From Gammaproteobacteria bacterium (GTDB taxonomy: Bacteria; Pseudomonadota; Gammaproteobacteria; GCA-001735895), in assembly GCA_030066085.1 (NCBI GenBank), contig JASJCI010000035.1, positions 1 to 64,000 of the forward strand: a stretch of DNA of 64,000 nucleotides, in the 5' to 3' direction. Each line of letters opens with the position of its first letter. Position 1 is the first letter of the stretch. A program made the translations under genes and the position numbers. Below are positions 257-32,433 of the stretch, in pieces. Under the pieces are notes generated by a model, which saw only the letters and a program-made list of their open reading frames with translations, ran no database searches and was not told the DNA's origin.

Positions 257-1279
257 TCAGCGGCGACGGCGGCGGCGGTTGCTGCCGCGGGTGGCGACGC
301 GGTCCTGGCCCTCGGCCTGGGCCCGCGCGCCGGCGGTGATGTCGCCGAGGTCGCGCACTACCGTGTCGATGTCCGGCGTGGCACCTGGCGGCGTGTTGTC
401 GAGCGCGGCGCGCATCGCGGCGACGTGTTGCGGCGAAGTGCCGCAGCAGCCACCGACGATGCGCGCGCCCGCGTCGCGCGCGAGTACCGCGTAGCGGGCC
501 ATGATTTCCGGCGTGCCGTTGTAGACGATTTCGCCGTCGACGAACTCGGGCAGGCCGCAGTTGGCCTTGGCCACCAGCACGGTATTCTCGCCGTCGGTCA
601 GGTTGGCCCTGAAGTTCAGGATCGCGGCGACGACCTCGGCCGCGCCGATGCCGCAATTGGTGCCGCAGGCGTGCACGCCGAGTTCACGCTGCAACGCCAT
701 CATGTCGGCCGCGCCGACGCCCATCATGGTGCGGCCGTTGGTGTCGAAACTCATGGTAAACACGATCGGCAGCGCGGTCCGGCGCGCGCCCTCGACCGCC
801 AGCTGGACTTCCTCGCGCGACGACATGGTTTCGATCCAGAGCATGTCGGCGCCACCCTGCTCCAGCGCGAGAGCCTGTTCGGCGAAACCCTCTATCGCGT
901 CTTCCGGCTGCAGGTCGCCGAGCGGGGCGAGAATCTCGCCGGACGGGCCGATCGAGCCCGCGACCACGACCTCGCGCTCGCCGGCATCGACCACCTCGCG
1001 CAGGATGCGCGCGGCGGCGACGTTGAGTTCACTGACCCGGTGCTCGGCCTGGTGCAGCTTGAGCCGATAGCGCGTGCCGCCGAAACTGTTGGTCAGCACC
1101 AGGTCGGAGCCGGCATCGATGAAGCTCTGGTAATGCGCCGCGACGCGTTCGGGGTAGTCGACGTTCCACAACTCGGGCGCGTCGCCGCTTTGCAGCCCCA
1201 TGGCAAAGAAGTTCGTGCCGGTGGCGCCGTCTGCCAGCAGGGTGCCACGGGTCTGCAGCAGCTGCTCGAACCTGTTCAA
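257..1279 (-). CDS. Homocysteine S-methyltransferase family protein with a poly-Arg C-terminus
   Basis: This 340-residue protein matches the homocysteine-binding, zinc-dependent barrel found in betaine-homocysteine methyltransferase and in the first domain of MetH. The N-terminus has the expected DGATGTN stretch (residues 17-23). The zinc cysteines are Cys209 in GTNCG and Cys278-Cys279 in GGCCG. The family makes methionine from homocysteine and a methyl donor. MetH-type cobalamin, methyl-THF and activation domains are absent, so the donor must be a small molecule or a separate corrinoid protein. The last six residues are all arginine, which is unusual for the family and echoes the Arg-rich tails of the corrinoid partners at 24.8-31.3 kb. 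The start is TTG, overlapping the ispB stop (TTGA), so the two genes are probably translationally coupled. The family call is firm; the methyl donor is not known. Confidence 0.85.
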   Translation of the reverse strand: MNRFEQLLQTRGTLLADGATGTNFFAMGLQSGDAPELWNVDYPERVAAHYQSFIDAGSDLVLTNSFGGTRYRLKLHQAEHRVSELNVAAARILREVVDAGEREVVVAGSIGPSGEILAPLGDLQPEDAIEGFAEQALALEQGGADMLWIETMSSREEVQLAVEGARRTALPIVFTMSFDTNGRTMMGVGAADMMALQRELGVHACGTNCGIGAAEVVAAILNFRANLTDGENTVLVAKANCGLPEFVDGEIVYNGTPEIMARYAVLARDAGARIVGGCCGTSPQHVAAMRAALDNTPPGATPDIDTVVRDLGDITAGARAQAEGQDRVATRGSNRRRRRR

Positions 1280-17048: not shown

Positions 17049-17160
17049 CTATCGATAAGCATAGTTTATCCAGTTCTATAAAATTTAACCGATTGTCGCG
17101 CATTTTTCATCAGGTATGATTATCCGAAAATCGAAACCAGTCGTCTCGAGGAGTCATGAC

Positions 17161-18291
17161 ATGAGCCCAGGCAGCGCGCGCAAGATCGACGCGGAAGTAC
17201 CTTTCGATCGCGATCCGGAACTGTCCTACACCATCCCCGCCCGCTATTACCTCGACCAGGAGGTGCTCGAGCAGGAGAAAGACGCGGTGTTTTATCGCAA
17301 CTGGTGGTATGCCGGGCACCAGAGCCAGCTGGCCGCAGCCGGCTGTTATCTCACGGTGCAGATCAGCGAACAGAACATTATCGTTATCCGCGATCGCGAC
17401 GGTGAGCTGCGGGCCTATTACAATGTCTGTCAGCATCGCGGCCACGAGCTGTTGTTCGGCAGCGGCAAGGTGCGCACGATTACCTGCCCTTACCATGCCT
17501 GGTCCTACGGTTTCGACGGTGAACTCAAGGCGGTACGCAATTCGGAGGGCATGGCCCAGTTCGACAAGTGCCGTTTCGCGCTCAAGCCGGTGCAGGTCGA
17601 GGTTTTCTGCGGTCTCGTGTTCGTCAACCTCGATCCGCAGGCGCCGCCGCTGGGGCAGCAGGCGGCCGGTCTCGAAAAAGAGATCCGCGAGTTTTGTCCG
17701 CGCGTCGACGAGGTGGTTTTTGCCCAGCGCGACGAGTATCGCGTCGCCTGCAACTGGAAGGTCATGATCGACAATTTCCTCGAGTGTTACCACTGCCATC
17801 CCGCGCACAAGGACTTTGTCAGCCTGGTCGACATGGACAGCTACCGGGTACACACGCACGATATCTATTCCAGCCACGTTTCCAACGCGGCCAAATCGAC
17901 CGAGAACAATGCCTATCATTTCGAAAAGGGCGAAGTCGACTTCGGTTATGCCGGCTGGTTCCTGTGGCCCAACCTGACGATCTGGATCTATCCCGGCGAG
18001 CCCAATATCTCGGTGCTGCAGATGAACCCGGATGGCGTTGCCAGTACGATCGAGTACCAGGACTGGTACCTGCCCAACCCGGAGCCGACGCAGCAGCAGC
18101 GCGATGCCATGGACTACCAGCGCGACGTGCTGCAGCCGGAAGACATAGGCCTGTGCGAAAGCGTTTTTCGCGGCCTGCAGTCGAAGGGTTACAACCAGGG
18201 CCGTTTCGTCGTCGATCCCGCGCGCAGCGAGCTGTCGGAGCACGGCGTGCATCATTTCCAGCAGCTGTACATGGACGCCATGTCGACCTGA
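17161..18291 (+). CDS. Rieske non-heme iron oxygenase, GbcA/CntA-like
   Basis: The 376-residue protein is the catalytic subunit of a Rieske oxygenase. The [2Fe-2S] ligands are Cys90-x-His92 and Cys109-x2-His112. The mononuclear iron site is Glu208-x2-His211-x4-His216 in DNFLECYHCHPAHKDF. This shape is shared by glycine betaine monooxygenase, stachydrine demethylase and carnitine monooxygenase, which remove N-methyl or quaternary amine groups with O2. I chose the ATG at 17161 because AGGAG lies 7 bases before it; an upstream in-frame start lacks this. The usual ferredoxin-reductase partner is not adjacent. The flavin reductase at 20500 is the nearest redox gene. Substrate is inferred from context. 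Confidence 0.85.
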   Translation: MSPGSARKIDAEVPFDRDPELSYTIPARYYLDQEVLEQEKDAVFYRNWWYAGHQSQLAAAGCYLTVQISEQNIIVIRDRDGELRAYYNVCQHRGHELLFGSGKVRTITCPYHAWSYGFDGELKAVRNSEGMAQFDKCRFALKPVQVEVFCGLVFVNLDPQAPPLGQQAAGLEKEIREFCPRVDEVVFAQRDEYRVACNWKVMIDNFLECYHCHPAHKDFVSLVDMDSYRVHTHDIYSSHVSNAAKSTENNAYHFEKGEVDFGYAGWFLWPNLTIWIYPGEPNISVLQMNPDGVASTIEYQDWYLPNPEPTQQQRDAMDYQRDVLQPEDIGLCESVFRGLQSKGYNQGRFVVDPARSELSEHGVHHFQQLYMDAMST

Positions 18292-21610: not shown

Positions 21611-22321
21611 ATGTCCGACGATTACGATGACGACGAGTACGAAGACGATCTGGATCTGAGCACCCTGCCGGACGACGAGCTTGTCGAGCAGATGCACGAC
21701 GACCTCTACAACGGTCTGAAAGAAGAGATCGCCGAGGGCACCGAGATCCTGCTCGAGCGGGGCTGGGACGCGAACAAGGTCCTCAACGAAGCGCTGGTCG
21801 CCGGTATGACCATCGTCGGCATCGATTTCCGCGACGGCATCCTGTTCGTACCGGAAGTACTGATGTCCGCCAACGCGATGAAGGCCGGCATGGAAGTGCT
21901 CAAGCCGCTACTGTCGCAGTCGGACGTTCCCTCGGTCGGTAAAATGGTTATCGGTACGGTCAAGGGCGACATCCACGACATCGGCAAGAACCTCGTGTGC
22001 ATGATGATGGAAGGCGCAGGTTTCGAAGTGGTCGATCTCGGCATCAATACCCCGGTCGAGGATTACCTCGCCGCGCTGGAAGAGCACAAGCCCGAAATCC
22101 TCGGCATGTCGGCGCTGCTGACCACGACCATGCCCTACATGAAGGTCGTGATCGACACGATGAAAGAGCAGGGTATTCGCGACGACTACATCGTGCTGGT
22201 CGGCGGTGCACCGCTGAACCAGGAGTTCGGCGAAGCCATCGGTGCCGATGCCTACTGCCGCGATGCCGCGGTAGCAGCGGAAACCGCCAAGCAGCTGGTC
22301 GCCGAACGGCGCGCGGGTTAA
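21611..22321 (+). CDS. Corrinoid (methyl-carrier) protein with acidic N-terminal tail
   Basis: The 236-residue protein carries methyl groups on a cobalamin-type cofactor in a MtbC/MtgC-like role. It has a helical cap (about 22-105) and a B12-binding domain with DIHDIG (120-125; His122 is the lower cobalt ligand), MSALLTTT (166-173) and VGGAPLN (197-203). The first 32 residues contain 16 Asp or Glu and no Lys or Arg, which the family does not need. I chose the ATG at 21611, with GAGGAG before it; the ribosome site lies inside a strong stem. It heads an operon with genes for methyl transfer, methyl-THF oxidation and corrinoid repair. Function class is firm, methyl donor not. Confidence 0.93.
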   Translation: MSDDYDDDEYEDDLDLSTLPDDELVEQMHDDLYNGLKEEIAEGTEILLERGWDANKVLNEALVAGMTIVGIDFRDGILFVPEVLMSANAMKAGMEVLKPLLSQSDVPSVGKMVIGTVKGDIHDIGKNLVCMMMEGAGFEVVDLGINTPVEDYLAALEEHKPEILGMSALLTTTMPYMKVVIDTMKEQGIRDDYIVLVGGAPLNQEFGEAIGADAYCRDAAVAAETAKQLVAERRAG

Positions 22322-22351
22322 TCGCGGCCGTCCGCCGGGTGATGCTCGATC

Positions 22352-22966
22352 ATGGCAAGCGATGCTCCGGTCCTGGTGATCACCTGCGCGGCGATCGCGC
22401 GTGAAGTCAACGAGATAAAGAAGCAGGGCCAGTGGTCGCAGATGGAGCTGCAGGCCATTACCGCCGACCTGCATTCCCGACCGGAAAAGATCCCGGCGGC
22501 GGTAGCCGCGAAGATCGATGCGGCGCGCGATCGCTACGAGCATATTTTTGTTGCCTACGGCGACTGCGGCACCAGCGGTGAGCTCGACCGGGTGCTGGAG
22601 GAAAAAGGCGTCAAGCGTTTACCCGGCGCGCATTGTTACGACTTCCTCGCCGGGCGTGAAACCTATGCGCGGATGCAGGAAGCCGAGCCCGGCACGTTTT
22701 ACCTGACCGATTTTCTCGCGCAGCATTTTCAGCGGCTGGTGATCGAGGTGCTTGGCATCGACCGGCACCCGGAACTGAAGGACATGTATTTCGGCAACTA
22801 CACGCGCCTGGTCTACCTCGCGCAGACCGATAACGACGAGTTGACCGAACTGGCGCGTGCCGCCGCCGCCGAACTCGGCTTGCGCTTCGAACGCGTGTTC
22901 ACCGGCATGGGAGAAATGGTGCCCGAACTGGATGCGGCCATGCGGGAGGCGCTGTGGCACAGTTGA
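22352..22966 (+). CDS. DUF1638 family protein
   Basis: This 204-residue protein belongs to DUF1638, a family that is often found beside MttB-type methyltransferases and corrinoid proteins. Visible conserved parts are ITCAAIAREV near the start, GDCGTSGELDRVL and GAHCYDFLAG in the middle, with three conserved cysteines that could bind metal or corrinoid. Function is unknown. It overlaps the next gene by 13 bp. Confidence 0.85.
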   Translation: MASDAPVLVITCAAIAREVNEIKKQGQWSQMELQAITADLHSRPEKIPAAVAAKIDAARDRYEHIFVAYGDCGTSGELDRVLEEKGVKRLPGAHCYDFLAGRETYARMQEAEPGTFYLTDFLAQHFQRLVIEVLGIDRHPELKDMYFGNYTRLVYLAQTDNDELTELARAAAAELGLRFERVFTGMGEMVPELDAAMREALWHS

Positions 22967-23268
22967 AGATCGTCTACTGGCGCGACATACCGGGCCAGGT
23001 CGTGATACGCGAGGGTCGCCGCAGTACCCGCCTGCGCCTGTCGCCGCGCTTTGCGCGCGCGATCGAACGCGCCGCGTACCGGCTCAAGAAGCACGACGAC
23101 AACGCGCTGTTCGATCCGTGGCACGACGTTGCCCAGCCGTTCGACGGCGACGTGCGCGAGCAGGCGCAACAACTCGTACGCAACCTCGAAATCGAGTATA
23201 CGGACGAGGTTCTCGAAACCCTGATACGGGCCAGCGGCGTCGACCAGAACCGCGGCCTCAATGCCTGA
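22954..23268 (+). CDS. Small virulence-factor-family protein (PF13769-like)
   Basis: The 104-residue protein begins MAQLKIVYWRDIPGQVVI and has a basic centre. This short family is annotated as virulence factor in databases for historical reasons and travels with MTHFR and corrinoid genes in proteobacteria. No catalytic motif is visible. It starts at GTG inside the end of the DUF1638 gene and overlaps the next gene by 8 bp, so it is a full operon member. A role as an assembly or adaptor protein is a guess. Confidence 0.7.
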   Translation: MAQLKIVYWRDIPGQVVIREGRRSTRLRLSPRFARAIERAAYRLKKHDDNALFDPWHDVAQPFDGDVREQAQQLVRNLEIEYTDEVLETLIRASGVDQNRGLNA

Positions 23269-23749
23269 TACGGGAGGCGCGGTGTACAAGGTACGTCAAT
23301 GGTCGGTCAGCAATGCGCGCAGGCTCGAGTGGCTTTACCGGACTTTCGAGCCGATGCTCGTCTGGTTGCACCCGCTGTTCAACGGCGTCGGTTACGGGCG
23401 CATGGAAAAGCCGGTGCGCGTGGTCGAGAAGGCGGTCAAGTCGTTCATGTTCGACTGCCAGATGTGCGGCAAGTGCGCGCTCAGCTCTACCGGCATGTCC
23501 TGCCCGATGAACTGTCCCAAGTCGATTCGCAACGGCCCCTGTGGCGGCGTGCGCGAAAACGGCATGTGCGAGGTCAAGCCCGAGATGCGCTGCGTCTGGG
23601 TCGAGGCCTGGCGCGGCAGCCAGCAGATGCGCGACGACCAGGCCATTCACCAGGTCCAGATCCCGGTCGACAACCTGCTCAAGGGCAGCTCGTCGTGGCT
23701 GCGCGTGGTGCGCGAGCACGTCGACGCCCGCGATGGAGCCTCGTCGTGA
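23261..23749 (+). CDS. Cys-rich methylene-THF reductase C-terminal domain protein (MTHFR_C)
   Basis: This 162-residue protein matches the MTHFR_C/MetV zinc-and-iron-sulfur-like domain. Eight cysteines form a cluster: Cys66, 69, 72, 81, 85, 94, 103 and 111, in the pattern CQMCGKC, CPMNC, NGPCGG. In acetogens MetV pairs with MetF and links it to an electron carrier. Here it overlaps metF by a GTGA junction, so a 1:1 complex with MetF is likely. A later GTG at 23282 is an alternative start. Confidence 0.85.
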   Translation: MPDTGGAVYKVRQWSVSNARRLEWLYRTFEPMLVWLHPLFNGVGYGRMEKPVRVVEKAVKSFMFDCQMCGKCALSSTGMSCPMNCPKSIRNGPCGGVRENGMCEVKPEMRCVWVEAWRGSQQMRDDQAIHQVQIPVDNLLKGSSSWLRVVREHVDARDGASS

Positions 23750-24765
23750 TCGCGCCCTGGGACGGCAGCCCCGGCGCACCGCTGCCGGAGAAGGAAGGCC
23801 ACGTGTCGCGCGGCCGTCTCGAGCGCGTGCTGCGCTCGGGCAAGTTCGCGGTCACCGCCGAACTGGCGCCGCCGGATTCGGCGCTGGCCGAGGATGTCTA
23901 CGAGCGCGCGCGGGTATTCGACGGCTGGGTCGACGGTATGAACGCGACCGACGGCTCGGGGGCGCATTGCCACATGTCCAGCGTCGCGATGTGCGCGCTG
24001 CTGACCAACGTCGGTTATTCCCCGGTACTGCAGATTTCCTGCCGCGACAAGAATCGCATCGCGATCCAGGGCGACGTGCTCGGTGCCGCCGCGATGGGTG
24101 TGTCCAACGTGCTGTGCCTGTCGGGTGACGGCGTACAGGTTGGTGATCACCCGGAAGCCAAGCCGGTGTTCGATCTCGACAGCATGTCGCTGCTGGAAAT
24201 GATCCGCATCATGCGCGACGAATCGCGTTTCCTGAGCGGACGCAAGATCACCTCGCCGCCGCAGCTGTTTCTCGGCGCGGCCGAAAACCCGGGCGCGCCA
24301 CCGGTGGATTTCCGCCCTTACCGGCTGGCCAAGAAGATCGCCGCCGGTGCGCAGTTCATCCAGACCCAGTACGTCTACGATGTCGAACAGCTGCGCGAAT
24401 TCATGGCGCGCAGCCGCGACCTCGGCCTGCTGGAGCAGTGCTTTATCCTGCCCGGGGTCGGTCCGCTGGCGTCGGCGCGCACGGCGTTGTGGATTCGCAA
24501 CAACGTACCCGGCGTGTTTATCCCGGATGCCGTCATCAAGCGCCTCGAAGGCGCCGAGGATCCGAAACGGGAAGGGCGGCGCCTGTGCGTCGAACTGATC
24601 CAGCAGATCCGCGAGATCGAGGGCGTCAGCGGGGTGCATATCATGGCCTACCGCCAGGAAGAATTTGTCGCAGAAATAGTCGAGCAGTCCGGCGTGCTCG
24701 AGGGCCGCGTGCCCTGGTATCCCGGTTGCGAGAAAAAATCCGAGCCGGCAGTGGGCTCGGCTTGA
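23746..24765 (+). CDS. metF: Methylene-tetrahydrofolate reductase, MetF family
   Basis: The 339-residue flavoprotein barrel interconverts methylene-THF and methyl-THF. It shows FAVTAELAPPDS near the start, NVLCLSGDGVQVGDHPEAKPVFDLDS in the centre and AGAQFIQTQYVYD. The start is a GTG overlapping the MTHFR_C stop. Because the operon feeds methyl-THF from demethylation, the enzyme may run toward methylene-THF here; that direction is inferred. Unlike other partners of the corrinoid protein it has no Arg-rich tail. Confidence 0.92.
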   Translation: MIAPWDGSPGAPLPEKEGHVSRGRLERVLRSGKFAVTAELAPPDSALAEDVYERARVFDGWVDGMNATDGSGAHCHMSSVAMCALLTNVGYSPVLQISCRDKNRIAIQGDVLGAAAMGVSNVLCLSGDGVQVGDHPEAKPVFDLDSMSLLEMIRIMRDESRFLSGRKITSPPQLFLGAAENPGAPPVDFRPYRLAKKIAAGAQFIQTQYVYDVEQLREFMARSRDLGLLEQCFILPGVGPLASARTALWIRNNVPGVFIPDAVIKRLEGAEDPKREGRRLCVELIQQIREIEGVSGVHIMAYRQEEFVAEIVEQSGVLEGRVPWYPGCEKKSEPAVGSA

Positions 24766-24797
24766 TCAACTGAATTGCAGCATTCGAGGAAAACAAC

Positions 24798-25721
24798 ATG
24801 ACCGAAACGGTTGTCAGCTCCGCTACCAAAGAACTCGTCATCGGCTTCGACCGGCCCTTTTGCATCATCGGCGAGCGTATCAACCCGACCGGCCGCAAGA
24901 TCATGGCCGAGGAAATGAAAAACGGCGATTACAGCCGGGTCGAAAGCGATGCCATTGCCCAGGTCGAGGCCGGCGCGCACATGCTCGACGTCAATGCGGG
25001 TATCCCGCTGGCGGACGAGCCGCGTATTCTCGCCGAGGCGATTCAGCTGGTGCAGGGCCTGACCGACGTGCCGCTGGCAATCGATTCGTCGATCATCGAT
25101 GCACTCGAAGCCGGCCTCGCGGTCTACAAGGGCAAGGCGCTGGTCAACTCGGTAACCGGCGAGGACGAAAGCCTCGAGCGGGTACTGCCGCTGGTCAAGA
25201 AACACGACGCCGCAGTGGTCGCGATCTCCAACGACGAAACCGGCATCTCGGAAGATATCGACGTGCGCTACAACGTGGCGAAGAAAATCGTCGAGCGTGC
25301 CGCCGACCATGGCATCAAGGCCTGCGACGTGGTCGTCGATCCGCTGGTCATGCCGATCGGTGCGATCAATACCGCCGGCCGCGAGGTGCTTAAACTGATT
25401 CACCGCCTGCGTACCGAGCTCAAGGTCAACACCACCTGCGGCGCATCCAACATCAGCTTCGGCCTGCCGAATCGCAACGGTTTCAACGGCGCCTTCATCA
25501 GCATGGCGATCCAGGCCGGCATGACCTCGGCGATCACCAACCCGCTGCACGGCGAAGTCGTCGCCGCCAGCCTCGGCGCCGACGTGATGCTGGGCAAGGA
25601 CCCGGACTGCGCGCGCTGGATTCGCAAGTTCCGCGAGCCGGCGCCCGAAGGTGCCGGTGCGGGCGGTCGCGGCACCGGCCGTCGTGGCACGGGCCGTCGT
25701 CGCGCGCGTCCTGCTGCCTGA
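24798..25721 (+). CDS. Methyl-THF:corrinoid methyltransferase (MtgA/AcsE-like) with Arg-rich tail
   Basis: This 307-residue protein has the dihydropteroate-synthase-like barrel of the pterin methyltransferases: GERINPTG (25-32), HMLDVNAGIP (61-70), AIDSS (94-98) and NTTCGASNISFGLP (211-224). The family exchanges methyl groups between tetrahydrofolate and a corrinoid protein. Residues 283-307 form an extra tail rich in Gly and Arg with seven Arg between 291 and 304. It lies 32 bp after metF and 19 bp before the RACo gene. Activity is well supported; direction is inferred. Confidence 0.9.
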   Translation: MTETVVSSATKELVIGFDRPFCIIGERINPTGRKIMAEEMKNGDYSRVESDAIAQVEAGAHMLDVNAGIPLADEPRILAEAIQLVQGLTDVPLAIDSSIIDALEAGLAVYKGKALVNSVTGEDESLERVLPLVKKHDAAVVAISNDETGISEDIDVRYNVAKKIVERAADHGIKACDVVVDPLVMPIGAINTAGREVLKLIHRLRTELKVNTTCGASNISFGLPNRNGFNGAFISMAIQAGMTSAITNPLHGEVVAASLGADVMLGKDPDCARWIRKFREPAPEGAGAGGRGTGRRGTGRRRARPAA

Positions 25722-25740
25722 TTCGACGCCGGGTCGAGCC

Positions 25741-27765
25741 GTGAGCACGGAAGAAGAAGTCAGCGTCCTGTTCATGCCGTCGGGCCTGCGCGGGCAGGTT
25801 CCGGTCGGTACTACCGTGCTGCAGGCCGCGCAGCGGCTCGGGGTCGATCTCGAGTCGATCTGCGGTGGCCAGGGCCAGTGCCGCAAGTGCCAGGTGTTGC
25901 CGCAGGAAGGCGAGTTTTCCAAGCACGGCATCACTTCGCGTAGCGAGCACCTGTCGCCGTTCACCGAAACCGAGCGCCACCACCAGTCGAAAAAACGCCT
26001 CAAGGAAGGCCGCCGCCTCGGCTGTAACGCGCGCATCCTCGGCGACCTCGTAGTCGACGTGCCCGAGGAAAGCCAGCAGCACAAGCAACACATCGCCAAG
26101 GCCGTTACCGCCTACGATATCCAGGTGCAGCCGGCGCTGCACCTGTTCACCGTGACCCTGCCCGAGCCGGACATGCATGCGCCGATCTCGGACAAGCGCC
26201 GCCTGCAGCAGGCGCTGGTGCAGGAACACGACCTGCCGGTCATGGACTGCGAACTTTCGCAACTGAGGCTGCTGCAGCCGGCGCTGGAAAAAACCGGCCG
26301 CCAGGTGACCGTCGCGGTTTACCAGTTCGAAAAGATCATCGCGGTCTGGCCCGGCGTCAAAACCGAGGTTTACGGACTCGCGGTCGACCTCGGTTCGACC
26401 ACGATCGCGGCGCAGCTGTGCAACATGGTCACCGGCGAAGTGGTCGCCACCGCGGATACGATGAATCCGCAGATCCGCTTCGGCGAAGACCTGATGAGCC
26501 GCGTTTCCTACGTAATGATGAACGAGGGCGGCGATGCCGCGATGACCGCGGTCGTGCGCGAAGCTTTCAACCAGCTGGCCAAACGCGCGGCGAAGACGGC
26601 CAGGATTTCGGTCGAGGATATCCTCGACATGACCGTGGTCGCCAACCCGATCATGCACCACCTGTTTCTCGGCATCGATCCGACCCCGCTCGGCGGCGCG
26701 CCGTTTACGCTGACCACCGACCAGACCCAGGTGGTGCGCGCGGCCGAGCTCGATATCCACCTGCACCCGGAGGCGCGCGCCTGCACGCTGCCCTGTATTG
26801 CCGGCCACATCGGCGCGGATACCGCCGGCGTTATCCTGTCCGAGCGCCCCGACCTCGCCGACGAGTACACGCTGCTGGTCGACGTCGGCACCAACGCCGA
26901 GATCGTGCTCGGCAACCGCGACCGCCTGCTGGCCGCGTCGAGCCCGACCGGTCCGGCGTTCGAAGGCGCGCAGATCACTTCCGGCCAGCGCGCCGCACCC
27001 GGCGCGATCGAGCGCGTGCGCATCGATCCGGAAACCCTCGAAGGCCGTTTCAAGGTCATCGGTTGCGAGGTTTGGTCGGACGATCCCGACTTTGCCGAAC
27101 AAAGCAAAAAAGTCGGCGTCAGCGGCATCTGCGGCTCCGGCATCATCGAGGTGGTGGCCGAAATGTACCTCGCCGGCGTCATCGACCAGGACGGCGTCAT
27201 CGGTCCCAAGCCGGGCGTCGATTCGGCGCGCATCGTCGAGGACGGCCGCACCTGGTCCTACCTGTTGCACGACGGCGAGCGCCCGATCCAGGTCACGCAG
27301 AACGACGTGCGCGCGATCCAGCTGGCCAAGGCGGCACTGCACGCCGGCACCCGCCTGTTGATCGATCGCATGGGGATCGACAAGGTCGATCGTATCGGTT
27401 TTGCCGGCGCCTTCGGCAGTCACATCGACGTCAAGTACGCGATGGTGCTCGGGCTGATCCCGGACTGTAATCTCGATAATGTCGGGTCGGTCGGCAACGC
27501 CGCCGGCACCGGTGCGCGCATCGCGCTGCTCAACTTCCCGTCGCGGCTCGAGATCGGCGAAATCCTGCCCAAGGTGGAAAAGATCGAAACCGCGATCGAG
27601 CCGAAATTCCAGGAATACTTCATCGAGGCCATGGCCATTCCGCACAAGGCCGATCCCTACAGTGAACTCGGCAAGGTGGTATCCCTGCCGGCACCCAAAC
27701 CGAAAGCCGAATCCTCCGATGGCGGTGATGCGCGCCGCCGCTCGCGCCGTCGCCGGCGCGCCTAG
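25741..27765 (+). CDS. RACo-type corrinoid protein reductive activator with Arg-rich tail
   Basis: The 674-residue protein has an N-terminal [2Fe-2S] ferredoxin domain with Cys41, Cys47, Cys50 and Cys95 (CGGQGQCRKC, then GCN), a linker, and an ASKHA ATPase domain (from about 205, YGLAVDLGSTTIAAQL). Such proteins use ATP and low-potential electrons to return oxidised Co(II) corrinoid to Co(I). The final segment has eight Arg in the last ten residues. I used the GTG at 25741; an ATG-like start upstream would lie inside the previous gene. It ends the corrinoid operon. Confidence 0.93.
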   Translation: MSTEEEVSVLFMPSGLRGQVPVGTTVLQAAQRLGVDLESICGGQGQCRKCQVLPQEGEFSKHGITSRSEHLSPFTETERHHQSKKRLKEGRRLGCNARILGDLVVDVPEESQQHKQHIAKAVTAYDIQVQPALHLFTVTLPEPDMHAPISDKRRLQQALVQEHDLPVMDCELSQLRLLQPALEKTGRQVTVAVYQFEKIIAVWPGVKTEVYGLAVDLGSTTIAAQLCNMVTGEVVATADTMNPQIRFGEDLMSRVSYVMMNEGGDAAMTAVVREAFNQLAKRAAKTARISVEDILDMTVVANPIMHHLFLGIDPTPLGGAPFTLTTDQTQVVRAAELDIHLHPEARACTLPCIAGHIGADTAGVILSERPDLADEYTLLVDVGTNAEIVLGNRDRLLAASSPTGPAFEGAQITSGQRAAPGAIERVRIDPETLEGRFKVIGCEVWSDDPDFAEQSKKVGVSGICGSGIIEVVAEMYLAGVIDQDGVIGPKPGVDSARIVEDGRTWSYLLHDGERPIQVTQNDVRAIQLAKAALHAGTRLLIDRMGIDKVDRIGFAGAFGSHIDVKYAMVLGLIPDCNLDNVGSVGNAAGTGARIALLNFPSRLEIGEILPKVEKIETAIEPKFQEYFIEAMAIPHKADPYSELGKVVSLPAPKPKAESSDGGDARRRSRRRRRA

Positions 27766-27941
27766 TAGCAATTGCCTGCAGGCCGAATCGCCTGGGTCGG
27801 CGCTATCCCGGTTCCGGTTGTTCCGTCTTGCGCCCGGAAATGTCCCTGCTTTACCCGTTGAAGTTCGGAAAGTGGGCGCTGACTGAGGCGACTCGAAAGG
27901 CAACCTCCGACCCGTACGAGACGCCCGCGCTATCGATGAAA

Positions 27942-28151
27942 GCGTCATTCCGCTTCGGCGGACCGCCGCGCAGGCGGGAATCTTATAACAGCGCCGCCAT
28001 TGCAAGATCCCCGCGTGCGCGGGGATGACGGTTTTGAGGTGGGACGCCTTTGGCTCGATCCGTCATTCCCGTGTAAACGGGAATCTGGTCATGGGGTGTT
28101 GGTCCCTGGGAGATCCCCGCCGCGCCGCGCAGGCATGCGCGGGGATGACGG
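27942..28151. repeat. Cluster of GTCAT(T/C)CCCGC palindromic repeats
   Basis: Two adjacent palindromic elements (27942-28030 and 28060-28151) carry the cores CGTCATTCC and GGGGATGACG. The stretch 28039-28151 has 109 of 113 bases identical to 29562-29674, in the same orientation, on the far side of the GlxA-family gene. The full gap 27766-28357 (592 bp) shows no gene. Confidence 0.85.
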
Positions 28152-28357
28152 CGTTGGGGGCGACAGCAAATGGCCGTTCGCAGATGCCGATAAATCGCTT
28201 GTTGCGTCGACCGGTTGAATCCACAACTGCTTGCGGAAGCTAACGATTTTGTAAGGAGCGTCCGCTCTCGGGTAACGGTCCGACTCCCTGATTCTCTTAA
28301 GCTTCAGTGTTGCGTTTGCGAAGGGGTCCCGGCTTTCACCGGGTTGATCCAGCAGAA

Positions 28358-29365
28358 TTAGTCGATAGTTTCGACCGTTTCGCCGGTGGCTCGCGCCTGC
28401 AGTTTGCGGCGCTCGTCGCGCGGGGGGATGCCGAACAAATCCCGGTAACACTTGCTGAAGTGCGGCGCCGAGATGAAACCGCAGGCCAGCGCGATATCGA
28501 CGATCGACTTGCTGGTCTGCAGCAACAGCAGGCGCGCGCGGTTCAGGCGCAAATTGAGATAGTATCGAGTCGGCACGCAGTTCAGATGCTTCTGGAACAG
28601 GCGCTCGAGCTGGCGCCGCGAAATACCGACGTAGTTGGATAATTCGTCGAGGCTGATCGGTTCCTCGATATTTGCTTCCATCAGGGTCACTGCCTCGGTG
28701 AGCTTCGGCTGGTTGGAGCCGAGCGCGAGATGCAGCGGCACGCGCTGACGGTCCTCTGAACTGCGGATGCGCTCGCACATGAACTGTTCCGAAATGCGGG
28801 TGACGAGTTCATTGCCGTGGCGCTCGTAAATCAGGTTCAGCATCAGGTCCAGCGAAGCCTGCCCGCCGGCGCAGGAGAAGCGATCGCGGTCGACGACGAA
28901 CAGGTCGTCGGTGACCTGCACGTTGGCAAACTCCTCCCGCAGGCTGGCGATGTTTTCCCAGTGAATCGTGCAGCGATAACCGTCCAGCAGCCCGGCACGC
29001 GCTAGCAGGTAACTCGCGGTGCACAGTGCGCCGATTCTGAGGTTGCTGCGCTTGGCCAGGCGTCGCAGCGAGAACTGCAGCTGTTTCGACCAGGCCTTGC
29101 CGATGTCGGAACCGCCGCAGACCAGCAGCAGCGACAGGTCGCCGGCGTTTTCGATACTGCCGTCCGGGGTGATTTCGATGCCATTGCTGGCCTGCACCGG
29201 CAAGCCGTCCGGGGTGTAGATGTGCCAGCGGTACAGCGTCTTGCCGCTCTCGCGGTTGGCCATGCGCAAGGGCTCCAGCGCCGACGAGAAGGCGATCATC
29301 GAAAAGCCCGGAACGAGCAGGAAACCTGCCTGCTCGGGCTTGGCGGCGACTTTGGTTTCGCTCAT
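28358..29365 (-). CDS. GlxA-family AraC regulator (GbdR/CdhR-like) 1
   Basis: The 335-residue protein has an N-terminal DJ-1/PfpI-like domain (about 12-190, with the ALCTASYLLARAGLLDG stretch) and a C-terminal AraC DNA-binding domain (about 225-320, ISLDELSNYVGISRRQLERLF). GbdR and relatives of this type sense glycine betaine, dimethylglycine or carnitine. It lies between the corrinoid operon and the MttB-family gene and is transcribed in the same direction as the latter. The gene is bracketed by near-identical 113-bp direct repeats. Confidence 0.9.
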   Translation of the reverse strand: MSETKVAAKPEQAGFLLVPGFSMIAFSSALEPLRMANRESGKTLYRWHIYTPDGLPVQASNGIEITPDGSIENAGDLSLLLVCGGSDIGKAWSKQLQFSLRRLAKRSNLRIGALCTASYLLARAGLLDGYRCTIHWENIASLREEFANVQVTDDLFVVDRDRFSCAGGQASLDLMLNLIYERHGNELVTRISEQFMCERIRSSEDRQRVPLHLALGSNQPKLTEAVTLMEANIEEPISLDELSNYVGISRRQLERLFQKHLNCVPTRYYLNLRLNRARLLLLQTSKSIVDIALACGFISAPHFSKCYRDLFGIPPRDERRKLQARATGETVETID

Positions 29366-29525
29366 GGGGGCTGATTGTACCGAACTGGCGACCTTTTTCG
29401 ATCGGGTTGCATCAAGGGGGCGCCATGCCGGGCGCTTACCAGGCCCGGCGCGCGGATGTTTTCTCGCCGGGACGCAAGGAGTTTAGATGGTTTTTCGAGA
29501 TTGAAGGTAATTGCCGAAGGCTCAT

Positions 29526-29674
29526 CTTCATCCCCGCTTGCGCGGGGTTGGCGGATTTGGAGTGGGACGCCTTTGGCTCGATCCGTCATTCCCGTGTAAA
29601 CGGGAATCTGGTCATGGGGTGTTGGTCCTTTGGAGATCCCCGCCGCGCCGCGCAGGCTTGCGCGGGGATAACGG
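29526..29674. repeat. Palindromic repeats, second copy of the 113-bp direct repeat
   Basis: A short GATGA-type hairpin (about 29526-29550) is followed by 29562-29674, which matches 28039-28151 at 109 of 113 positions. It lies in the 343-bp gap 29366-29708 between the GlxA gene and the end of the MttB-family gene. No gene is seen in the gap. Confidence 0.85.
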
Positions 29675-29708
29675 GTTTGGAGTGACGCGCCTGCGGCGCG
29701 CAGATTTT

Positions 29709-31277
29709 TTATACCATCGAGTCGGGCATCGAGTCCTTGCGCTGGCGGATGAAAGCCAGCAGGGCTTCGTCGACCGCGGGGTCCAGCGGCGGTGCCTCGT
29801 ACTCGTTGAGCAACTTCTTGAAGCGGGCGTTGCAGCGCTGCGCGTGATCCAGGCTGCCCTCCGATTCCCACTGCTCGAAGCTGTTGTTGTCGGTAATCGG
29901 CGACAGGTAAAACGCGTCCTTGAAGTTGTTCTGCGTATGCGTGCAACCGAGGAAATGTACGCCGGGTCCGACTTCACGAATCGCGTCCATGGCCTGGCCG
30001 TTCTCCGACAGGTCGACGCCGCGCATGAAGACCTCCATCATTGCCGCCTGGTCGGCGTCCATGATGAATTTCTCGTACCCCATCGCGAGCCCGCCTTCCA
30101 TCCAGCCGGCGGTATGCAGCACGAAGTTGACCCCGGCCATGACCGCCGGCAACAGGGTGGCAGACGCTTCGTAAGCCGCCTGTGCGTCGGGCAGCTTGGA
30201 TCCGCACAGGCCGCCGCCGGAGCGAAACGGTACACCCAGTCGGCGTGCCAGTGCGGCCATGGTATAGAGCACCAGCGCCGGCTCCGGCGTGCCGAAGGTC
30301 GGTGCCCCCGACTGCATCGACATCGAGCTGGCGAAGCTGCCGAAAATCACCGGCGCGCCCGGATTGACCAGCTGCACGAAAGTCATGCCGGCCAGCGCCT
30401 CGGCCAGCGATTGCGCCGCGGTCCCGGCGACGGTCACCGGCGACATCGCGCCGGCGAGGATGAACGGCGTGATGATGGTGGCCTGGTTGTGCTCGGCATA
30501 CACCTTGGCGGCACCCAGCATGGTGTCGTCGAAGGTCATCGGCGAGTTGGCGTTGATCAGGCTGGTGGCGTAAGTGCGCGGCCGTCCGGTTTCGCTGTCG
30601 ATGAAGTCGTCGCCGGCGATGATCTTGATCATCTCGATCGTGTCGAGCGCGCGTTCGGGTGCGGTTACCGAGCCCATGAAAGCCTTGTCGGAGTACTTGA
30701 TATGCGAATACACCATGTCGAGATGGCGCTTGTTGACCGGGATATCGACCGGTTCGCAAATGGTACCGCCGGAGTGGTGCAGGCTCGGCGACGCGTAGGC
30801 CAGCTTGACGAAGTTCTGGAAATCCTCGATGGTCGCGTAGCGCCGGCCCTTGTCGAGATCGAACACGAACGGGCTGCCGTAGGCCGGAACGAAAACCGTG
30901 TGATCGCCACCGATGCGGACGCTGCGCGCCGGGTTGCGCGCGTGCTGGGTGTATTCCGCGGGTGCCGATTGCTGCACGATTTCGCGGCACATGCCGCGCG
31001 CAAAGCGCACGGTGACGCCGTCGACCTCGGCGCCGCCGGCACGCAGGATATCGAGCGCTTCCGGCATGTCGCGGAACTCGATACCGACTTCCTCGAGGAT
31101 GGTGTCGGCGTTGTGCTCGATGGTTGCCAGGCCTTCCTCGTCCACGACCTCGAAACGCGGGATCTTGCGCGTAATGTAAGGCGCGCGGGCTGGCGCCGCG
31201 GCTCCTGCCGCTGCGCGTCGTGCATCGCGTCCACCGCGGCCGCGGCGGCCACGACCTGCTCGGGTATTGTCGCTCAT
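29709..31277 (-). CDS. MttB-superfamily (trimethylamine/glycine betaine) methyltransferase, non-pyrrolysine
   Basis: The 522-residue protein is a barrel methyltransferase of the MttB superfamily, which moves a methyl group from a methylated amine to a corrinoid protein. The frame has no internal amber codon, so it is the non-pyrrolysine (MtgB-like) branch. Visible family parts include LHHSGGTICEP near the first third, NANSPMTFDD, and HTAGWMEGGLAMGYEKFIMD. The N-terminus has an extra Gly/Arg tail (residues 5-31, nine Arg). It is divergent from the second GlxA regulator. Glycine betaine as substrate fits the context but dimethylglycine, carnitine or proline betaine are equally possible. Confidence 0.92.
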   Translation of the reverse strand: MSDNTRAGRGRRGRGGRDARRAAAGAAAPARAPYITRKIPRFEVVDEEGLATIEHNADTILEEVGIEFRDMPEALDILRAGGAEVDGVTVRFARGMCREIVQQSAPAEYTQHARNPARSVRIGGDHTVFVPAYGSPFVFDLDKGRRYATIEDFQNFVKLAYASPSLHHSGGTICEPVDIPVNKRHLDMVYSHIKYSDKAFMGSVTAPERALDTIEMIKIIAGDDFIDSETGRPRTYATSLINANSPMTFDDTMLGAAKVYAEHNQATIITPFILAGAMSPVTVAGTAAQSLAEALAGMTFVQLVNPGAPVIFGSFASSMSMQSGAPTFGTPEPALVLYTMAALARRLGVPFRSGGGLCGSKLPDAQAAYEASATLLPAVMAGVNFVLHTAGWMEGGLAMGYEKFIMDADQAAMMEVFMRGVDLSENGQAMDAIREVGPGVHFLGCTHTQNNFKDAFYLSPITDNNSFEQWESEGSLDHAQRCNARFKKLLNEYEAPPLDPAVDEALLAFIRQRKDSMPDSMV

Positions 31278-31434
31278 CGATAACTCCGGGTTGTCGTGAT
31301 CGATCGAAGTAGGTCAACCGCCAGAGTATCCGGCCTGCCCGCGGATCGGGCTGACCTGTGGGCGACCCTGAACTATGCGCCAGCGTCATCCGCTAATGCC
31401 CGGCGCGGTTGTTGTACCGGATAAATGGTTTAAA

Positions 31435-32433
31435 ATGAAAAGCTTAGGAAATTCCGGGAGTGACGTCATCGAGGCCGAGAGCGAATCCATCGGCATCCTG
31501 TTGATCGAGGGTTACCCGATTATTCCGTTCAGCTGCGTGGTCGATTCGCTACGCACCGCCAATCGGTTATCGGGGCAAGCTCTCTATCGCTGGGAGTATT
31601 ATGCGCCCGACGAGCAGCCGGTCAGCGCCAGCTGCGGAATCACCGTGCCGACCCGGCCACTGGCCGCGGCAAGCGATCTCGAAACCCTGGTCATCGTCGC
31701 GCCCAACACGGCGCAGCACTTCGACGATGCCAGTACCCTTAAACAGCTCAGGACCCTGGATCGGCAGGGCGTAAACCTCGGCTCCGCCAGTTCGGGCAGC
31801 TTCATCCTGGCGCGCGCGGGTTTGCTCGACGAGGTCCGCTGCACCATTCACTGGGAGAACATCCCGGTGTTCCGCGAACTTTACCCGCAGGTCGACGTGG
31901 CCTTCACGCTGTACGAAATCGCTGACCGGCGCTGCACCTGTTCGGGCGGCACCGCGGCGCTCGACATGATGCTCAAGCTGATCGAAAACCGGCACGGCCG
32001 CGACCTGGCGCTGCAGGTATCGCAGCAGTTTCATCACGACCGCATCCGCAGCGAGGTCGATTCGCAGCAAATGGCCGATCGCATCGACCTGGCAATGAAT
32101 GCGCCGCGCCTGATCGACGTGATCAACCTGATGGAAAACAATATCGAGGCGCCGCTGCCGCTGCCGGCCATCGCCGAGAAGTGTGGCCTGTCGTTACGCC
32201 AGATCGAGCGCCTGTTTCACAAGTACCGGGACATGACGCCGAGCCAGTACTACCTGTCGCTGCGCCTGAAGCACGCCAAGCAGCTCTTGCTCAACACCAA
32301 TCGCAGCGTGATCGATATCTCGATCGCAACCGGTTTCGAAACCCAGTCCTACTTCACCGCCTGTTACCGCAAGCATTTCGGTTCGTCGCCGCGCAACCAT
32401 CGTTCGCAGGTGGCAACCGGCAACAAGGGCTGA
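31435..32433 (+). CDS. GlxA-family AraC regulator (GbdR/CdhR-like) 2
   Basis: This protein of about 332 residues has the DJ-1/PfpI-like domain (SIGILLIEGYPIIPFS at the start, SASSGSFILARAGLLDEV in the middle) and an AraC domain (CGLSLRQIERLFHKYRDMTPSQYYLSLRLKHA). I prefer the ATG at 31435, just before the conserved part; ATG codons at 31375 and 31396 would add up to 20 residues. It is divergent from the MttB-family gene and the likely regulator of it. It is clearly a paralogue of the GlxA gene at 28358. Confidence 0.88.
   Translation: MKSLGNSGSDVIEAESESIGILLIEGYPIIPFSCVVDSLRTANRLSGQALYRWEYYAPDEQPVSASCGITVPTRPLAAASDLETLVIVAPNTAQHFDDASTLKQLRTLDRQGVNLGSASSGSFILARAGLLDEVRCTIHWENIPVFRELYPQVDVAFTLYEIADRRCTCSGGTAALDMMLKLIENRHGRDLALQVSQQFHHDRIRSEVDSQQMADRIDLAMNAPRLIDVINLMENNIEAPLPLPAIAEKCGLSLRQIERLFHKYRDMTPSQYYLSLRLKHAKQLLLNTNRSVIDISIATGFETQSYFTACYRKHFGSSPRNHRSQVATGNKG

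Follow-up and report, generated by a model that had tools for sequence, protein, structure and literature searches.

The first 64,000 nucleotides of contig JASJCI010000035.1 (assembly GCA_030066085.1, a Gammaproteobacteria bacterium; this whole stretch is referred to as the window) contain a corrinoid methyl-transfer gene set in which the corrinoid protein, the methyl carrier, begins with an acidic tail and four partner families carry Arg-rich tails. The Arg tail is at the N-end in MttB-family methyltransferases and at the C-end in the methyl-tetrahydrofolate:corrinoid methyltransferase (MtrH/MtgD type), the corrinoid activator (RACo type) and the homocysteine S-methyltransferase (MtgE/Bmt type). 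The tails are present, conserved in related loci, restricted to the carrier and its partners, and found or lacking as sets. We consider it reasonably probable, from these sequence patterns, that they constitute a hub-and-spoke docking code, in which the acidic tail would be a shared tag for Arg-tailed partners and would serve both tethering and partner choice. The carrier, the partners and their tails are located as follows.

21611..22321, plus strand: corrinoid protein (MtgC type), methyl carrier; B12-binding_2 at residues 25-98, B12-binding at 111-219
21611..21670, plus strand: acidic N-tail of the corrinoid protein, residues 1-20, of which 1-11 are predicted to be disordered; a conserved hydrophobic-D-L-x-x-L-x-D stretch follows
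24798..25721, plus strand: MtrH/MtgD-type methyltransferase; Pterin_bind match, PRK07535 over cut-off
25638..25718, plus strand: Arg/Gly-rich C-tail of MtrH/MtgD, residues 281-307; 292-301 and 305-307 with a predicted local distance difference test score (pLDDT) <50
25741..27765, plus strand: RACo-type corrinoid activator; frame open from 25651, its start codon uncertain; matches to the RACo linker, middle and C-terminal domains
27661..27762, plus strand: C-tail of RACo, which ends RRRSRRRRRA
29709..31277, minus strand: MttB-family methyltransferase (PF06253), no in-frame stop
31164..31277, minus strand: Arg/Gly-rich N-tail of MttB, residues 1-38
257..1279, minus strand: homocysteine S-methyltransferase, MtgE/Bmt type, the fourth partner (PF02574; PRK07534 over cut-off)
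260..304, minus strand: C-tail of MtgE, 8 Arg among the 15 C-terminal residues

Electrostatic docking had been proposed from the sequence of positions 21,611 to 31,277 (the original prediction), on the strength of 16 Asp/Glu and no Lys/Arg in residues 1-32 of the corrinoid protein, nine Arg (and 2 Asp/Glu) in residues 1-31 of MttB, seven Arg in residues 291-304 of MtrH and eight Arg in the last ten residues of RACo. Upon recounting, all four figures were exact. The acidic tail proper is shorter than the 32 residues assigned to it (about residues 1-20), because the B12-binding_2 domain begins at residue 25. All three partners named then are Arg tailed, and the set is larger, since it also includes MtgE and 12 more MttB paralogues. 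The homocysteine S-methyltransferase encoded at 257-1279 (minus strand), outside the region covered by that prediction, ends RVATRGSNRRRRRR. An Arg end on MtgE and Arg N-tails on MttB paralogues were both predicted before inspection, and both held: 13/13 MttB-family genes (L083-L095) in the source genome (G000; 4.39 Mb) had an Arg N-tail, even the three distant paralogues L093-L095, and among its three PF02574 genes the one in the window ended in Arg and the other two did not. Only one corrinoid match in the source genome was full-length; another reached 28% identity over 84 residues inside a 1107-residue frame. Three of the MttB paralogues (L084, L086 and L094) adjoin, by eye, frames that we take to be flavin adenine dinucleotide (FAD) oxidoreductases of the dimethylglycine/sarcosine dehydrogenase type, and the occurrence of such frames beside several paralogues suggests many N-methyl substrates.

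Conservation was assessed in 81 loci, namely, the window and the best 80 of 572 related stretches from a similarity search with the corrinoid protein, all scored by one fixed tail rule with counts on scorable genes. The records of the 80 stretches presumably belong to Gamma-, Beta- and Alphaproteobacteria, Acidimicrobiia or Ilumatobacter. An acidic N-tail was present on the corrinoid protein in 81/81 loci, a figure that partly reflects selection because one of the six seed peptides falls in the acidic tail. Arg tails were found on 57/57 scorable MtrH/MtgD (61 genes), 50/52 scorable RACo (54 genes), 30/31 MttB (at the N-end) and 11/12 scorable MtgE (at the C-end; 13 genes). The misses, due to the threshold or to a start codon, were in L050 (start codon), L059 and L066 (an RRRRRRRG end after acidic residues) and L070 (RRERRRRG). 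In L050, L219, L228, L229 and L215 the N-tail requires a GTG or TTG start, which leaves its beginning uncertain. In wider genomes 20/26 MtgE passed the rule, and the other 6 ended in Arg clusters by eye. The comparison of tail charge across related loci that the original prediction had called for showed complementary tails to be conserved.

Arg C-tails were rare on other proteins. In 464 kb of the source genome (the window and a 400-kb sample), 6/373 called genes passed a strict C-tail cut (at least 6 Arg and a net charge of at least +5 in the 20 C-terminal residues); MtrH, RACo and MtgE made up half of these six. An N-terminal cut was less telling, as it was passed by 13/373 genes, MttB and the virulence-factor protein included, and starts are uncertain. 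With a looser C-tail cut, 21/980 other genes (from 100 loci) passed, compared with 97/121 MtrH, RACo and MtgE genes from the 81 loci. Equally common basic tails on unrelated proteins, named in the original prediction as a finding that would speak against docking, were not what we observed at C-ends. Four neighbours in the same pathway, which are located in the window as follows, served as controls.

22352..22966, plus strand: DUF1638 protein (family match), no Arg C-tail
22954..23268, plus strand: small protein of the Virulence_fact family (PF13769; family match), no Arg C-tail
23261..23749, plus strand: MTHFR C-terminal-type protein (MTHFR_C; family match), no Arg C-tail
23746..24765, plus strand: MetF-type methylenetetrahydrofolate reductase (family match), no Arg C-tail

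At the same C-tail cut, 1/210 of these neighbours passed (DUF1638, 0/74; virulence-factor protein, 0/65; MTHFR_C, 1/37; MetF, 0/34). The earlier statement that all four lack tails was borne out for C-ends across loci. The virulence-factor protein of the window has 6 Arg and a net charge of +5 in its 30 N-terminal residues and passes the crude N-terminal cut. Its basic residues are not a tail, because they lie inside the Pfam domain (7-91). The Virulence_fact-family protein accompanies the corrinoid system in most loci (67 gene matches among 83 sequences searched).

Tails occurred together or not at all, as the docking proposal has it, with genomes G492, G496, G088 and G464 as apparent exceptions. 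Among 346 genomes in the phylum of an Ilumatobacter record, 57 had MttB; some MttB matches began at profile position 1, others began at 20-30 without a tail. From where the MttB match starts, 20 tailed-MttB and 20 untailed-MttB loci were chosen. Where at least two part types were scorable, every part was tailed in 19/19 tailed-MttB loci, no part was tailed in 15/15 untailed-MttB loci, and 61/64 loci of the 81-locus set were fully tailed (Arg runs also close the three threshold misses); loci in which fewer than two part types could be scored (1/20, 5/20 and 17/81, respectively) were left out, and the corrinoid label is partly circular here because a core score of >350 was required. A laxer MttB start rule was used for these set counts; under the stricter one, 30/31 and 17/21 passed. 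In 28 Pseudomonadota genomes with MttB, the corrinoid protein was found in 27 and was acidic in 27/27. The corrinoid protein was 72-80% identical in 20/22 tailed genomes.

Both kinds of set can be present in one genome. The clearest case was G353, in which four parts of L208 were untailed and four parts of L216 were tailed; both kinds were found in part in G528, G410, G311 and G431. L184, an untailed MttB placed beside the main tailed clade in the MttB tree, adjoins an untailed corrinoid gene. Outside tailed sets, 27/27 MtrH and 22/23 scorable RACo in genomes with untailed systems had no tail; the RACo of L356, an untailed system, passes the tail rule. In 35 genomes listed as untailed, an acid-tailed corrinoid protein was present only in G326, G630 and G464, and in G326 and G630 Arg-tailed parts were found too. 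For several MttB-family frames and some corrinoid frames of untailed genomes (G347, G579, G494, G472 and others), a stop codon, TAG or another, lies within the frame or close to it; the TAG-bearing frames may be pyrrolysine genes.

We also compared the composition of the tails with that of the protein cores. Arg made up 23-28% of tail residues, and Arg-to-Lys counts were 479:10 (MtrH), 472:53 (RACo), 367:44 (MttB) and 73:6 (MtgE). Arg as a fraction of Arg plus Lys was 0.86 in tails versus 0.61 in cores in 16 loci of 45-55% GC and 0.80 versus 0.62 in 3 loci of <45% GC, and all six Arg codons were in use (five in MtgE). Pairwise identity was 0.36-0.44 for tails and 0.52-0.81 for cores; despite this faster drift, net charge was held at about +4 to +5 in Arg tails and -6 in acidic tails. 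Tails had a median length of 15 to 40 residues. The charge of the corrinoid tail was anticorrelated with that of MttB (rho -0.52, n=42) and MtrH (rho -0.35, n=73), both values being uncorrected for descent. A GGRx(x)R motif occurred in 37/74 MtrH, 28/47 MttB, 13/71 RACo and 3/12 MtgE tails; a single shared motif was ruled out on these counts, charge being commoner than the motif. In AlphaFold2 monomer models, pLDDT was <50 at corrinoid residues 1-11 and at MtrH residues 292-301 and 305-307, and both modeled tails are predicted to be disordered. Chance or GC-rich low complexity was ruled out by the gene background, by the preference for Arg over Lys at lower GC and by the charge kept despite drift. 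Mis-called ends were ruled out as the source of the C-tails, which run to stop codons.

The MttB tail was also ruled out as a general part of the conserved fold, since anaerobe-type homologues begin after the tail region. PF06253 itself spans this region: tailed matches begin at profile positions 1-6, and many untailed ones begin at 20-30. Homologues in the Protein Data Bank (PDB; 2QNE, 9YCE, 2YCK, 1F6Y, 3ZYY and 1Y80) extend past the aligned core by 2 to 15 residues at the end in question; a basic N-end is present in 4YYC.

A docking code of this kind would work as follows. The corrinoid protein would be visited in turn by MttB-family enzymes, MtrH/MtgD, MtgE and RACo, the carrier exposing a disordered acidic N-tail and every visitor an Arg-rich tail at one end. 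Opposite charges would give weak, multivalent and fast-exchanging tethering, which would raise local concentration, steer the encounter and leave one carrier able to change partners, with productive docking left to the folded surfaces. Since a second, tail-less corrinoid set can share a genome, the tails probably help to separate the two sets, insulating the tailed from the untailed one. The docking proposed originally agrees with the comparative tests (conservation, rarity, partner restriction and all-or-none sets), from which we infer tail-tail binding, proximity to the carrier, an effect on rate and insulation. More tentatively, and at slightly less than an even chance, the tails may amount to an address code, in which the acidic tail marks a hub, and gain of an Arg tail is enough to make a client of an enzyme of any fold. 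If so, one carrier in the source genome would be shared by 13 MttB, one folate and one homocysteine methyltransferase and one activator, tails would insulate the sets in genomes with two corrinoid sets, clients would be recognizable by sequence alone, and new ones would be recruited through tail gain.

Several results weigh against docking by charged tails. No acid-tailed corrinoid protein was detected in G492 and G496, which have Arg-tailed MttB, or in G088, in which the Arg-tailed MttB is a fragment at a contig end; in G464, which has an acid-tailed corrinoid protein, only untailed MttB and a fragment were seen. When the core-score requirement was dropped and a looser rule was used, 2/15 untailed corrinoid proteins (L204 and L205) counted as acidic. 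The choice of the tailed and untailed loci by MttB start and the seed peptide in the acidic tail also count on this side, as does the weak relation between corrinoid and RACo tail charge (rho -0.21, P = 0.09, uncorrected for descent). No tail is present on DUF1638, which the literature ties to re-activation. Phaeobacter Bmt is active alone in vitro (PMC12366255), so that MtgE need not always visit the carrier. Descent is a further point. In a tree of 128 MttB cores (98 tailed and 30 untailed, of which 12 with ambiguous starts were labeled by eye, 11 as tailed and 1 as untailed), the MttB tail changed 4 times by parsimony, 2 of these changes being required by branches with strong support. Among untailed MttB there is a distant clade with tails, and an untailed group lies inside the tailed half. 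MttB tail and acidic carrier agreed in 116/116 labeled rows (95 tailed, 21 untailed), with 12/128 rows without a corrinoid label excluded and some labels assigned by genome, not by neighbor. An independent-pairs test had too few pairs to reach significance. With 2 to 4 independent MttB tail changes and a nonsignificant pairs test, joint inheritance of the gene set is compatible with the statistics.

Such inheritance could mean that the tails have no function, having become fixed a single time in an ancestral set of genes and then been passed on or kept by GC-rich drift. The few independent transitions are in line with this; the presence of tails on four unrelated families, the use of all Arg codons (five in MtgE), the retention of Arg at lower GC, the charge that stays while sequence drifts and the rarity of tails on other genes of the loci argue against it, and we regard it as very improbable. 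Functions other than pairwise docking were also considered. Opposite tails might drive complex coacervation, the whole methyl-transfer set then being a dense phase and not a series of pairwise complexes. Several Arg/Gly-rich tails facing one acidic tail, a composition kept over sequence and the oligomeric state of MttB homologues (PMC9842639), which would raise valency, favor a condensate. Short tails of modest net charge, with few aromatic residues in the C-tails, make it unlikely.

RNA or lipid binding is common for Arg-rich disordered tails, and the Arg tails might accordingly bind another polyanion (RNA, nucleoid, polyphosphate or membrane lipid) that co-localizes the enzymes, the acidic tail serving something else. 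It would then be unexplained why acidic and Arg tails occur together, why a second set of one genome lacks both, and why charge correlates with MttB and MtrH; we find this explanation doubtful, a shade more so than a condensate. The docking site of the Arg tails might instead be an acidic folded surface or a stretch that follows the acidic run (window 21641-21682; hydrophobic-x-L-x-x-L-x-D-(D/E)-E-L), with the run adding only long-range steering. In tailed corrinoid proteins this LxxLxD stretch has Leu at -5, -2 and +3 in 97/97 and Asp at 0 in 94/97, it is missing from untailed ones by eye, and corrinoid residues 11-20 are modeled with more confidence than residues 1-10 (mean pLDDT, 82 versus 43); it may serve in docking or cap a helix. 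The charge of the free acidic run is kept too, however, and we consider docking at such a site, with only steering left to the run, quite unlikely.

The hub-and-spoke reading concerns a pathway that has already been published. MtgBCD/MtgE constitute a glycine betaine demethylase and split methionine synthase in Ruegeria pomeroyi and Phaeobacter inhibens (PMC12478193, PMC5764234), and mtgBCD has been reported to be widely expressed in the ocean (PMC12478193). Like that system, ours comprises an MttB-family enzyme, a separate corrinoid protein with both B12-binding domains, a pterin methyltransferase, a homocysteine methyltransferase, a metF paralogue, and a RamA/RACo-like activator and DUF1638 that lie near the corrinoid gene, the MttB-family, MtrH/MtgD-type and MtgE/Bmt-type genes all being present in the genome; several MttB-type genes beside one mtgC are also shared. 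Charged tails go unmentioned in the accessible portions of those accounts (PMC12478193, PMC5764234). The anaerobe-type systems MtgB/MtgC/MtgA and MttB/MttC with RACo/RamA have the same folds and the same reaction logic, but neither kind of tail occurs in the homologous PDB chains that were checked or in untailed loci.

MttB and MttC dock via the cap domain, core loops and dimerization loop, and the N-terminal domain of MtaC on MtaB (2I2X) is an N-terminal addition to a corrinoid protein that aids partner binding (PMC9842639). In MtaC a domain occupies a groove of one partner, whereas the corrinoid protein of the window combines a short acidic tail with many partners. Charge pairing is found in the docking domains of polyketide/peptide synthases. 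These, too, are short terminal segments that order subunits (PMC9113145), but they act pairwise between megasynthase subunits, whereas here one hub tail would serve unrelated free enzymes.

The tails look like an undescribed charge-based way of keeping a carrier with its own partners. As the original prediction had surmised, no account of them was found in the literature, the search covering mainly the main text of freely accessible papers. How a methyltransferase tells its own corrinoid protein from others that resemble it is treated as a notable and incompletely explained question (PMC9842639), and the partner-specificity discussion in the accessible part of that source does not include charged tails. 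With a short tag that can be removed, partner choice becomes open to direct test; a docking tag would account for one carrier being able to serve many demethylases, would point to uncharacterized MttB-family enzymes as clients and would provide a design rule for organizing soluble enzymes.

In the window, the genes for the corrinoid protein, DUF1638, Virulence_fact, MTHFR_C, MetF, the pterin-binding methyltransferase and RACo form the set together with MttB, which is divergent from the corrinoid genes and lies between two regulators.

28358-29365, minus strand: AraC-type regulator, flanking the MttB gene
31375-32433, plus strand: AraC-type regulator, flanking the MttB gene

With each of the two NCBIfam MtgC models, the corrinoid protein fell short of the cut-off (219.6 of 370 and 175.3 of 310). 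The pyrrolysine trimethylamine methyltransferase MttB was ruled out for the MttB-family gene, which has no stop inside its frame and reached 270.5 bits of 525 with TIGR02369. By eye, positions 17116-18291 of the window encode what we take to be a Rieske-type oxygenase, possibly another gene for the oxidation of N-methyl compounds.

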